Assembly (NCBI GenBank): GCA_030272155.1
Contig: CP126196.1
Location: 1,612,001 to 1,676,000, forward strand
Reading direction: 5' to 3'
Source of the DNA: Tetradesmus obliquus
Lineage: Eukaryota; Chlorophyta; Chlorophyceae; Sphaeropleales; Scenedesmaceae
DNA: 64,000 bases
Of this stretch, positions 4,604 through 64,000 are shown one piece after another. The notes below the pieces were generated by a model. It saw only the letters and a program-made list of their open reading frames with translations. It ran no database searches and was not told the DNA's origin. The position numbers were made by a program, and so were the translations under genes. Positions within the stretch are counted from its first letter, which is position 1. Every line of letters starts with the position of its first letter.

Positions 4604-7600
4604 TTACTTGCCTCCAATGATCAGCTCAAAAGGCTTGCTGTTGTCATGAGGCTTATTCCCCACAACAACCTTGGACCCCATGCCCTTCGAAGGATACTCC
4701 GGCTCGTGGTACGGATATCCACTGCAGAACGACGCGTCAAGTTTTCCCTTCGACTGCCCCCACAGTTTGCAGCGCCCGTATTCTGGCGCGCCTGCAGCAG
4801 CAGACTTTGAATAAAAGCACGGGTAGCTGCACACGTGCGTCGCAATCGCCCATGGCAGGATCCTGCAGCCGTTGATGGTTTCGAGCTTCTGCCAGGCCTG
4901 CGGTTGGACCGGCATGCCAGCTGCTGTCAGCGTGATGTCGCCACCGACTGGCGCGTAGTTCCAGCTGCTGATGCCGGGCAGTGCTGTCGTGAAGATGCTG
5001 CCTTGGCAGGCCATCATGCGGGGGGCACAGGGCACCTGGGGGATGATGTCCCACTGGAAGGCAATCCTGCAGGCACGACACGCAGGTTGGAGGCATATTT
5101 GCCCGTTCAAGTAGTCAGCAGTGTGCACATGTGTACAGCGTGCAGCACAGAAGGGACGGTGTTGGCCAATGCTGCTAGCGCTGTTGCGCAGTTTCCAATG
5201 TTTCCCAGAGAGCAGCTTTCAAAGTGTCTATGGCAGCAGCATGTGGCTGTGTCTGGGTGGATTCACTTGAGCCTGCATCTGCACCCAGTCAAAGCGCAAG
5301 GCCATGAGTATGCAAAGCCCTGTGAGGTGCAACACAGACCACAGATCACGCCAAAGTACAAAACAACAGCAACACTGCATCAGAGCCGCACCTGCGTGCA
5401 TTGACGCGCTTGTTGAGCTCAGCCTTACACAGAGACAATGACAGCTGCAGCAGACACAGATCCTGTAAAAAATGTTACACAGCAGCCGCGCACCTGCGTG
5501 CGTTGACGCGCTTGTTGAAGTCTGCCACAAACGCGTCGCTGCCCACGTTGGGTGGCGCAAACAGCAGCGCGCCCACCGCCACCAGCGGCTTGCCGGCTGC
5601 TGCCAGCTTGTCGTCAAGCAGCACCTACAAGGCAGCATGAAATGAAAAATTGACTGATTGTTTGCCAGGATTCAGGCGATGAAAGCAGCGGCCAGTAAAT
5701 TGCTGTCAGCTTCTCATCGAGCAGCAGCTGCGCAGCAGATCACTCGTTGTTGACGGGTTGAAGACATGAAGCAGGGGCTTGCCGGCTGCCAGCTTTGCGT
5801 AGAGCAGCGCATGCACGGCGGTGAGCACAAAAACAGCAGCAGCAGTCTATCAAAGTGTGCCCATAGCCACCAGCGGCTTGCCGGCTGCTGTCAGCTTCTC
5901 ATCCAGCAGCACCTGCTCAGCAGCATACAAGTTGAGTGTTTTTGGAATAAAATAGCAATCGAAAGAGCGGCTTGTCAGCTGCCGCCAGCTTGTCACCAAA
6001 CAGCACCTGCACTTCAATAGATCTATCAGCATGCATTTTCACGTAAATCCGGCTGAATTCGCAAAGCCAAGCGCCCCTCCTGAGCCTTGTAGGCCAGCAT
6101 CGTAGCCATGGCAGCCCCTGGCAGCATGGCGGTTGCAGTGAAGGGCGGCTTGCTCACGCAGCGAAGCATGTCAGCAAAGGCATGCAGCCCTTTGAGCCTG
6201 CTCTCAAGTAGCTAGCTTGCACTCTTATCTGTGAAACCATGCAGCTTTTGCGTGCCTCAGAACATTCCACAGAGTCCACCAGCTCACCTGTGCTCTGTAG
6301 GCCAGCAGCGTAGCCAAGGCAGCCCCAAGGGAGTGGCCGCTGATTGTAACGTCAGTGACACCCCCCTGCACCACCTCCTTCAGCAGAATGCTCTCCAGGG
6401 CCGGCCACAGCAGCGCAGCTCCAAATGAGAAGCCCTTGGACACCAGGCCTGGGTAGCTGGCATCCTTGGTCTGCACGTACGTCATGTCTGCAGCATAAAA
6501 GTGGGTTTTCAAAGCAGGCAGGACAGGCAGCATGAGGCAGCAGGCCACAAGGGCAAGGTAGGAGAAGCCCTTGGAGACCAGTCCCGGGTATCTGGCATCT
6601 TTGGTCTGCACATACGTCATGTCCGCAAGTTGATATTGCATTGTCACAGCAGGCTGCACAGGCAGGCAAGCAAGCAGCACGAGGCGGCAGTTACGGGTGG
6701 GATGGTGAAGGAGCGGCGGTGGATGCATTCGAGGCTGTGCTGGGTGCCAATGCGTGGACATTGACTGCAGCAGCTGTTGAGGATGCTGCTGCTCAGTGCA
6801 CGTGGAGCCAGCACCTCACATGGTCGAGGGCTGCCTGACACCCGTTGAGTTTGATGTGCCACGCGCCTGCCGCTTGCACTCGGGCAGCGCCGCAGACACG
6901 CACACTCAGCCACTTGCCAGTCCACTTAAATGTCGCTGTCTGCTTGCATGCTTCTGATTGCTGTTCCTCATGCACGCTCAAAAACTCTTACACTTACCCA
7001 CTTGCCACTCCACTGCAGTGCGTGTCCCCCGAATCACCACTGCCAGCTGCTTGCCATCGCCACTCTTCAGCACAGCATACATTGGAATGGCTATCTTGTA
7101 GGGCCCCTGGGGCGGGGTTGACTCCATGTGCAGCAGGCGCCAGCCCTCTGGCATCACCAAGGGTGTGGCAAAGCCTGCTGCTCCTTGGCAGGGGGCCCAC
7201 AGGAACAAGTTGATCACGTTGGTGATGTACCTGCAGGACAAGGTGGGGTGTATCGGGAAGGAACGCAATGAGGTTTGCAGCCATATGTGTGTGGTATCAA
7301 CATGGCGGACATGGACTCCATGTGCAGCAGGCTCCAGCGCTCTGGCAGCAGCCAGGGTGTGGCAAAGCCTGCTGCTTCCTGGCAGGGGGCCCACAGGAAG
7401 AGGTTGATCACATTGGCGATGTACCTGCAGGGGGTGCGCGCGTGGGTGAGGTGCGACATCCAGAAACGCGCAACAGGCTTGCATGAGTGTTATGATTTTC
7501 ATGTCCCCCAGCTGGAATGCTGCTGCTGCTGCTGCCTGGCCAGCGCCCCTCCTGTGCCGTCTGCTCACCAGTAATGTGTGCCTCCTTCGGCAGCCAGCAG

Positions 7601-61498: not shown

Positions 61499-64000
61499 TC
61501 AGTCAAACCTACTCCTCTGCGGGCGCTCTTGCTTGCGCCGCCTGCCGCTGCTGCTGTGCTCCGGCTCTTGCTGCATAACAACTTCTGGTTGCACCAGCGG
61601 CAACAGCCCTGCAGCACCTGCAACCCCCTGCGCCGCTGCTGCTGCTGCATGGGACACTGCCGGCAGCGGCAGCACAGCAGCAAAGCCTGCTGCAGCTCCT
61701 GCACCTGCTGCTGCTGGTGGTGGTGCGCCTGTGTTGCTTGATTCTGGGCTCCAGCAGAACTTGTGCAGAGGCGGCATTGGGCATGCGCAGTTAAGCTGAC
61801 TCAGCGAGTCACTTGCTGCGCAGGGCGGCAGCTCATAGTCAAACAGCAGCTCGCGGCCTGCTGCTACTGCTGCTTTGACCACCAAGAAGGTGACTGGCTG
61901 CTGCTGCTGCTGGATCACTGGCGCATCGCTGCCCCATGCACTCGACTGCTGCTGCTGCTGCTGCTTCACAATATGTTTGCACATGTTTGCGTAGTGCCCG
62001 TGAGCTTGGTTGGCCCAATATGCCACTCCAGCAGTGAGCAGAGGATCAACCCTGCTGCTGTGTGGCTGCTGTTGCTGCTGTTTGTGCTGCTGCAGCTGCT
62101 CTTGCCGGGGTGTGCTGCATTCCTGCACTGGGAGCACACCAGCATGTGCATGCAGCTGGATTACACCACGAGCAGCAGCAGCAGCATTGGTGGAGCTGTT
62201 GCTGTTGCTGCTGGCCATGATGTTGCTGTTGCTAACTGCATCCATGTGCTGATCTAGCTCTGGCTGCTGCTTGTGCTGCTGCTCCAGCACCGCTGTGCTG
62301 TTGTCGCTGCTGTTGCTGCTGGTGCTGTTGGCGCTGGCGGTGCTGCTGCTGGCGACTGCTGTGTATGGCAGCACAAAACAGCTGCTGTGTCGAGGCATGC
62401 CTGCGACAGCAAGACAAAGACACAAAAGGCTGAACAGATGAGAGGGTAACTTCAAAACACTGTATTGCAAAGCTAAAGCAGCTGCTGTGGCGAGGCATGC
62501 CTGCATCAGCAACACACACAGCCGGCGACAGAGTACGACAGCACAGACACAAAAGGCAAAAAACGATTGGCGGGTGACCCTGACAGGATGGTTTTGCAAA
62601 GCCACAGCATGCGGCAAGCAGCATTGCTAACAGCTGCTGCTGAGACTGAACATAGCCAGGTGCCTCGTACAACTGCACTGCAGCTGCTCATTGGTGACAA
62701 TAGGTAGAACAGCTACGACAGATAGACAACGAAACACACGCATGCACCTGTGCACTTCTGTGATGCTGGACAACACAACAAGTAACAACAGCTGTGTCTG
62801 TGCTCACGTGCGTTCAGCAGGTCACTGGGAGGCTCCTTCGTGCCGATCCTGCTGACTGTGTACAGCCCCCGCCCTGCAGCAGGCCCCAGGCTGCTGCTGG
62901 CCACCATGCCATTGAAAAACAGCAAACCCCGAGGCTCACTGCCACCACGCAGTGCTGATGATGACAGCAGCTGCGTGAAACTCCCTGCATCGGCCGCAGG
63001 CTTTGTGTTGCTGGCAAGTGCGCTGCTGCTGGTGCTACTGCTGCGGGGGCATACAAACACGGATGCCACGTGCCCTATGAACTCTGTTCGGAGCTTTGCT
63101 GCTCGCTCGAGCTCCTGCAAGCTGACCTGCTGCTGCTGCTGCTGCTGCTGCTGCTGCTGCTGCTGGATATGCAGGTCGCTGGCGCTGCCCCTGCTGCTGC
63201 TGTGCATGCTGCTGCCGCCGCGGCTGCTGCTGACGCCTCGGCTACAGCTGAGGTCAAACAAGCTGTGGGAGAAGACAGCGGCGCTGCAGGTGTGGTAGCT
63301 ACCAGGGTCTGCCCGCAGGGCTTGCTTGCAGAATTTGCAGCGCTTGAGCCAGGGCCTTGCCCCTGTCTCTGCCATGCCAAGGTTGACCATTGCAGCGTTG
63401 AGGAAGGCGGGCGCTGAGGTGCAGATGTGCAAGCTCAGGCTGTCATTTGGTACTAGGTTGCCACACCTGGTGCAGGAGGGAGGGGTGGTTACAGCAGAGG
63501 CAGCAGCGCTGTTGACGAGATTGCAGGAACTGTGTTTGTGAAGTGCCTGACACATGGCTCTGCATATGTGTCATTGAGACACACTTTGCTCTGCCCTAAC
63601 AGGCCTGATGCATGCCCTGCTGCCGCGAAACAGTGCCACTCCAGTTCCGCACCGCACACTGCCAGGAAGCTTCACCATAGCTTCAACAGTTTTAACATAT
63701 ACTAGTCATGTCTACACGCTGCTGCTGCAGCTGTTCATCATCATCAGCAGCAGGGCTCACCTGCTGCAGCTCCACCTGTTGAGGTGTGGGTCAAAGCAGG
63801 GGCACTTGGTCATGGCTTGCTCCATCAGCTCTGCTGCTGTGCCGCCAGCTTGCAGCAAGCGCAGCGCATCCAGGCAGGAGTTTTCCGTGCAGGCCGACAA
63901 GTGCTTGCTGAGCTGCTTGAGGGGAATGGCACCCGTGTGCACCTGCAGCCTGATTGCCAGGTGCACTCCCGCCAGCAGCAGCACATGAGTCAGTCAAAGT
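61499..64000 (-). CDS. Zinc-finger/SET-like protein, 5' end outside the window
   Basis: Partial gene. Visible exons: from the right edge to 63761, then 63466-62808 and 62400-61499; phases agree. Two Cys/His clusters, CSRCGNLVPNDSLSLHIC and CKFCKQALRADPGSYHTC, resemble small zinc knuckles. Then LLFFNGMVASSSLGPAAGRG LY and VSRI look like the start of a SET domain, and VTFLVVKAAVAAGRELLFDY with a following CACP looks like its end and a post-SET cysteine pair. A lysine methyltransferase role is suggested. The central NHSCxPN motif is not visible, and poly-Gln/Ser inserts separate the halves, so catalysis is doubtful. The C-terminus is Ala/Pro-rich and ends basic (GRRRKQERPQRSRFD). Confidence 0.6.
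62380..62510. repeat. 100-bp repeat of SET-gene last-exon start
   Basis: CGAGGCATGCCTG, covering the acceptor and first codons (MPRHSSCF) of the last exon, occurs at 62391 and again at 62491, exactly 100 bp upstream in sense. Confidence 0.85.
63127..63165. repeat. CTG repeat, coding poly-Gln
   Basis: CTG run on the plus strand, CAG in sense, giving a glutamine run between the zinc clusters and the SET-like segment. Confidence 0.9.

Follow-up and report, generated by a model that had tools for sequence, protein, structure and literature searches.

The stretch analysed here, the window, is 64,000 nucleotides of the green alga Tetradesmus obliquus (contig C6, positions 1,612,001-1,676,000), in a genome of 104.66 Mb in 17 contigs. 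Based on Pfam matches, the window encodes a class 3 lipase, a GT32-like DXD glycosyltransferase (Gly_transf_sug), an arrestin, galactose-oxidase-like proteins (GLOX A and B), a cobW protein, a GT71 protein (Mannosyl_trans3) and a DDE transposase. For the SR/DCD, nitroreductase and SET pieces, which had no Pfam match, the names given in the initial sequence reading are used. In the sampled parts of this genome the edge of an exon, together with its splice site, is duplicated into the adjoining intron at about one exon edge in eight, and these junction-straddling duplications lengthen existing introns. The copies observed in the window were as follows.

5387..5526, reverse strand: lipase, exon end and donor copied 102 bp into the intron
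5571..6011, reverse strand: lipase, one exon start recurring in several degenerate copies upstream of its acceptor
6079..6326, reverse strand: lipase, exon end and donor copied 208 bp downstream in the gene
6427..6665, reverse strand: lipase, copy of an exon start lying 135 bp upstream, identity 81.7%
7120..7431, reverse strand: lipase, acceptor with about 100 bp of exon, the copy lying 194 bp upstream
7518..7893, reverse strand: lipase, donor and exon end repeated at 145 bp
8250..8813, reverse strand: lipase, acceptor and exon start, about four repeats at 101 bp in the upstream intron
13336..14182, reverse strand: GT32-like gene, long array of donor and exon end, built on a unit of about 102 bp and including a 233-bp dimer
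16929..17309, reverse strand: SR/DCD gene, copies of a donor (at 121-123 bp) and of an acceptor (at 104-106 bp)
17403..18107, reverse strand: SR/DCD gene, exon-plus-intron units of about 226-245 bp
18834..19105, reverse strand: SR/DCD gene, donor-spanning pair, period 137-139 bp
31795..31873, forward strand: arrestin, 40 bp perfectly duplicated across the donor at 31802
36734..36828, reverse strand: GT71, 62-bp tandem pair on the intron side, adjoining a donor; weak
43404..43612, forward strand: GLOX A, donor and exon end copied 93 bp downstream, plus a second, more degenerate copy; none seen in GLOX B
45234..45371, forward strand: GLOX A, acceptor and exon start copied 94 bp upstream; none seen in GLOX B
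54113..54597, reverse strand: CobW model at its 3' end, pair of exon plus intron with a period of 199 bp, part of it lying beyond the predicted gene
56431..56628, reverse strand: CobW, exon end and donor with a copy 100 bp inside the intron, identity about 78%
59794..59904, forward strand: nitroreductase, 19-bp exon match 91 bp away, short of the splice site; weak
62375..62516, reverse strand: SET gene, acceptor and exon start copied 100 bp upstream

A sequence-only reading of the window had claimed such copies in nine genes. Those of the lipase, GT32 gene (102 bp), SR/DCD gene, arrestin, oxidase A (93 and 94 bp), CobW (100 bp) and SET gene (100 bp) were recovered. The nitroreductase copy is weak, a match of 19 bp at a distance of 91 bp that stops short of the splice site, and the GT71 copy, which had itself been called weak, is reduced to the intron-side 62-bp pair. 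The proposed clustering of periods near 100 bp was too narrow: the nearest copies lay 72-288 bp away, with the mode at 100-139 bp (42 of 83 edges), and the arrestin duplication measures 40 bp.

The sample comprised 264 kb from three contigs, namely the window and two 100-kb blocks (C1, 1.0-1.1 Mb; C2, 2.0-2.1 Mb), with 56.5-57.4% G+C. To these were added 7 kb flanking a lipase paralogue on contig C7. Excerpted genome statistics for Tetradesmus obliquus (PMC5966456) give a size of 107.7 Mb, 57% G+C and 7.8 introns per gene, with introns averaging 462 bp, against 230-302 bp in the four other algae tabulated there. Gene models were predicted ab initio by a two-strand exon/intron hidden Markov model trained on the 264 kb, with partial homology checks; the consensus that it reached was CAG/GTGNG for donors and TGCAG/G for acceptors (the slash marks the junction), and one of the window models merges several genes. 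Proteins joined across copy-bearing junctions gave alignments free of any repeated segment, with a ClpP/R-type chain (7eko_L, E 1.8e-96) in one case and a homoserine dehydrogenase (1ebf_A, E 2.7e-62) in the other. This favours the edges attached to the complete exons as the true ones.

Local direct repeats (E ≤ 0.01, distance ≤ 1 kb) numbered 135 pairs in the 264 kb (window 44, C1 72, C2 19), and none was found in any of three dinucleotide-shuffled controls under the same limits; without masking, the search was swamped by CAG repeats. The 135 pairs grouped into 75 clusters, 65 of which carried both exon and intron labels. When exon edges were aligned to their own adjoining introns, 116 of 850 matched at a score of at least 35, whereas only 1 of 2,548 matched the same kind of region in another block; this comparison with mismatched pairs, which the sequence-only reading had put forward as a check, thus came out in its favour. 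With a minimum score of 34 and a minimum exon length of 75 bp, the adjoining intron was matched by 83 of 642 edges, which carried 131 copies; some of the 642 belong to copies that the gene finder had called exons. Donors (45/320) and acceptors (38/322) were both affected, and junction-spanning duplications were present in all three blocks (window 22/158, C1 43/215, C2 18/269), so that the suggested extension of the pattern beyond the window was confirmed. The search covered the adjoining intron only, and copies on the opposite side would escape it. At the same score, none of 633 edges matched sequence 3-4 kb downstream, and in exons of at least 200 bp matches were obtained for 6 of 248 centres versus 24 of 237 edges. 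Of the 37 predicted models in which four or more edges were tested, 21 bear a copy. Most copies are set apart from the exon and from one another by substitutions and indels, and do not resemble the identical copies that mis-joined reads would give. As a separate observation, sequence 3-4 kb upstream was matched by 12 of 638 edges at a score of at least 34, perhaps owing to partial gene duplication.

A typical copy consists of 20-75 bp of the exon edge (75 bp being the limit of the probe), the splice site and a few intron bases. One copy was found at 57 edges, two at 16, three at 4, four at 4 and seven at 2. Decoy splice sites were left behind, as had been claimed: among copies that reach the edge, GT was retained in 57 of 67 donor copies and AG in 37 of 42 acceptor copies, and 22 of the 131 copies stop short of the edge. 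The copied donor site scored at most 0.5 below the true site in 36 of 66 cases and more than 3 below it in 14; the corresponding counts for acceptors were 23 and 10 of 41. Several duplications are recent (97-100% identity). Clear arrays were observed in a ClpP-like gene on C1 (true edge and four copies, 118-bp unit, 98% identity), in a gene with what we take to be a kinase-like motif (three decoys) and in the GT32 gene (at least five decoys). Three genome searches gave no match better than the own locus. In the C1 block, positions 67746-68358 (contig C1 1,067,746-1,068,358) hold several 108-bp units with a donor-like site that are open in one frame; this junction array could also be read as a 36-residue protein repeat.

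The introns that bear copies are longer. Their median was 482 bp (n=64) versus 288 bp for introns without a copy (n=532; p 2e-9), and when the offset of the farthest copy was subtracted the median fell to 292 bp. As this value is close to 288 bp, existing introns have been enlarged. Paralogues were compared in two cases. GLOX A and GLOX B are tandem paralogues (window 40889-46113 and 47169-52415, about 6.3 kb apart, matching stretches of about 70-91% identity) that share the intron positions 43,426/49,806 and 45,335/51,809, and copies were seen in A only. At 43426-43612 of GLOX A, the true exon and the second copy read CTA while the first copy and GLOX B read CTG; this is a single site, and either conversion or homoplasy could give such sharing. 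The C7 lipase aligns exon by exon with the window lipase and has the copy-bearing intron positions in common with it; in its nine-exon model no edge reached a score of 34, two edges scoring 26-27. It also has one intron (L026 3938-4164) that is absent from the window lipase at 4948/4954, and no copy was found at the edges of that intron. Intron gain or loss thus occurs, but not visibly by edge duplication. The only candidate for creation, an intron whose length equals the period (105 bp), was resolved as a three-copy donor array misread by the gene model. Given this and the intron positions shared with copy-less paralogues, no intron created by edge duplication was found in the cases tested. 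The earlier statement that this process creates or enlarges introns therefore holds for enlargement and is unsupported for creation; overall, the observation is confirmed and is wider than first seen, and the interpretation was half right.

The intron-derived part of the duplicated unit was recognised by comparing the intron flanks of the original and the farthest copy. In homologous register 20 of 62 families were related at p ≤ 0.05, and the other 42 gave a rescaled mean of 0.23. With the flanks shifted by 70, 110 and 150 bp, 2, 0 and 0 of the 62 families were related, with means of 0.53, 0.48 and 0.55. As the similarity is specific to the register, the duplicated unit contained intron sequence, as in an ordinary tandem duplication straddling the junction. 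The exon-derived half outlasts the intron-derived half. When copies were detected by exon positions 22-95, counted from the edge, alone, the last 20 bp were kept (identity at least 0.7) in 61 of 67, with a mean of 0.918, and the adjoining 40-bp intron flank exceeded the 95% null in 26 of these 61. Between decoys of the same family (45 pairs, 18 families), 1,070 columns of exon part contained 109 substitutions and 5 gaps, and 841 columns of intron part contained 136 substitutions and 107 gaps; the exon part was less changed in 15 families, more in 2 and equally in 1. A second decoy-decoy comparison gave a slower exon part in 7 of 9 families. In a neutral simulation, scaled to third-codon-position divergence and with an assumed indel rate, flanks were alignable in all 66 pairs with an exon identity of at least 0.90; in the observed data they were alignable in 32 of 66.

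Taken together, these results probably reflect recurrent short tandem duplications across existing junctions that lengthen introns and leave decoys. Such duplications, mostly of 80-290 bp and most commonly of 100-139 bp, would arise continually in the genome, and one falling across an exon-intron junction would place an extra exon edge and splice site inside the intron. The edge on the complete exon would stay in use, the intron would grow by the duplicated span, and the extra edge would be a largely or wholly functionless decoy. Some units were amplified afterwards, with as many as seven copies found at an edge. In each unit the intron-derived half then decays fast. The exon-derived half remains recognisable for longer, held by selection on the exon and presumably also by sequence exchange among exon-derived segments. 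Exchange limited to the exon part is suggested; the neutral simulation fails to predict the unequal decay. A stronger version is possible but doubtful: exon-limited exchange, perhaps templated by spliced RNA or cDNA, would keep copies alike up to the splice site while the surrounding intron turns over, and together with junction-straddling duplication it would be a main route of intron lengthening, acting in more than half of multi-exon genes.

Several points weigh against recurrent duplication with functionless decoys and exchange. The sample is 264 kb out of 104.7 Mb, and the gene models are ab initio, with many copies called exons: 53 of 131 copy matches fall in predicted exons, a few of them being the true exon seen from a copy. 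The exon part was not slower in 4 of 21 true-decoy and 1 of 9 decoy-decoy families, the young ClpP-like array included. The decoys in the decoy-decoy comparisons were detected by exon similarity, which is a bias; the test based on positions 22-95 is less biased. Conversion between copies has not been observed directly. Codon patterns also depart from those of a wholly neutral copy. The nonsynonymous share was 0.446 in true-decoy pairs, where 0.546 is expected if the exon is conserved and the copy neutral (p 5e-5), and 0.477 in decoy-decoy pairs, where 0.705 is expected (p 2e-12). Third-position differences were about three times as frequent as second-position ones (276/1,894 versus 97/1,897), and between decoys the counts were 154/974 versus 48/976.

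The main rival to exon-limited exchange is plain survivorship, to which we give somewhat less than an even chance. Random tandem duplication would be followed by differential survival: duplications confined to exons are eliminated, those confined to introns decay twice as fast and mainly those straddling an edge remain, with no exchange needed. Survivorship can account for part of the apparent preference for exon edges, because the youngest 12 clusters (at least 95% identity; 2 intron-only, 10 mixed exon/intron) have an intron-only share close to that of random shifts (about 16% of pairs), and intron-only clusters nearly vanish in successively older classes (1/17, 0/27 and 0/19). Compared with random shifts, wholly intronic (4 versus 21.5, sd 5.0), wholly exonic (6 versus 16.2, sd 5.9) and intergenic pairs (3 versus 13.5, sd 5.4) were rarer. 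Single-junction pairs were slightly above random shifts (50 versus 40.1, sd 6.9), a weak excess that suits survivorship, and junction-to-junction pairs numbered 30 versus 1.9, a count inflated by copies called exons. However, survivorship leaves unexplained the undetectable flanks beside exon parts that are 90-95% identical, that is, the shortfall from the simulated 66 alignable pairs.

Copying limited to the exon is unlikely. Here the exon edge alone would be inserted into the intron, for example from an RNA or cDNA template, and the flanks would never have been homologous. The position of match ends agrees with this: among the 21 young pairs listed, 12 have a match that stops 2-11 bp beyond the predicted splice site and covers 21-69 bp of the exon. 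So do the flanks of 35 of 61 copies, which were within the null range. It is spoken against by the shifted-flank controls, in which the residual similarity was lost on shifting, and several flanks look homologous in the alignments.

A function of the copies as alternative exon ends or cassette mini-exons, under selection at the protein level, is in our view similarly improbable. The nonsynonymous deficit, which extends to decoy-decoy pairs, and the excess of third-position differences described above both favour such a function. The case for strong coding selection on the copies is weakened by polarised GC-to-AT counts, since these differences amount to 4.0, 4.9 and 7.1% at codon positions 1, 2 and 3, nearer to neutral. 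Splice sites showed no clear enrichment at the far ends of the copies (0.20 in donor and 0.22 in acceptor copies versus 0.15 and 0.13 at random; 0.13 and 0.04 in copies not called exons), and when tested as a group, individual copies perhaps excepted, the copies were not bounded by both an acceptor and a donor, as cassette or mutually exclusive exons would be. The distance to the copy was divisible by three at 26 of 83 edges, with no bias to multiples of three. Frameshifts occurred in 12 of 131 copies, and stops made up 6 of 186 nonsynonymous changes, close to the share for random mutation. The solved relatives mentioned above also align without a repeated segment at copy-bearing junctions.

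Creation of new introns by tandem duplication, although it involves an identical class of mutation and had one intron of matching length in its favour, is very improbable for the cases tested, in view of that intron being a donor array, of copy-bearing positions common to paralogues, and of two spacers that matched only themselves in a genome-wide search that skips common words. Two further candidates were rejected: recursive splicing at AG/GT points is spoken against by the far-end splice-site counts, and a diverged paralogue as the source of copies by the three genome searches.

Other repeats and elements were noted in the window. A DDE_3-type transposase fragment lies at 1075-1535 (Pfam E 6.2e-12), and near it, at 561-933, there is an intergenic tandem pair of 190 bp with 91.8% identity. 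The SR-like region at 20152-25369 is very rich in Ala, Gln and Ser and full of CAG/CTG repeats, and one of its predicted exons contains tandem units about 108-165 bp long.

Should the sampled rate hold, the genome would offer thousands of natural tests of how the spliceosome chooses between near-identical sites about 100 bp apart. A simple route of intron growth is documented, and the GLOX A/B pair is useful as a natural comparison of introns. The unequal decay of exon- and intron-derived halves would make exon-limited gene conversion testable. The many copy matches placed in predicted exons by the gene finder (53 of 131) are also a warning for annotation.

In titles and the beginnings of abstracts, no report of the exon-edge copy pattern in green algae was found. 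In tandem exon duplication with mutually exclusive splicing, exon sequence is duplicated inside the neighbouring intron; in the present case, mostly an exon edge and one splice site are copied. Introners, as presented in part of PMC9860276, are likewise a recurrent intron-related change across many genes. They differ in that the repeated unit here is the gene's own exon edge and spacer, with no shared element seen: 2 of 67 spacers were searched genome-wide and gave self-matches only, and spacer-spacer matches, among those listed, were within one array or short (14-39 bp). Intron gain of the AGGT type, as outlined in sections of a review (PMC3443670) and of an account of Drosophila cases (PMC2891723), also proceeds by short intragenic tandem duplication of splice-site sequence. 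There, an exonic segment is duplicated, AGGT gives both sites and the new intron has the size of the duplication, whereas the present duplications straddle an existing junction and lengthen an existing intron. In the excerpted description of the potato RdRp gene (PMC4974935), the tandem copy takes in an intron-exon junction with its splicing signals, as it does here; that case concerns one gene with a new intron and inserted exonic sequence, while in Tetradesmus obliquus many genes are affected, with longer introns and up to seven copies per edge. The class of mutation is thus already known, and what is new is its frequency in this genome, the decoy arrays and the unequal decay of the two halves of the copied unit.

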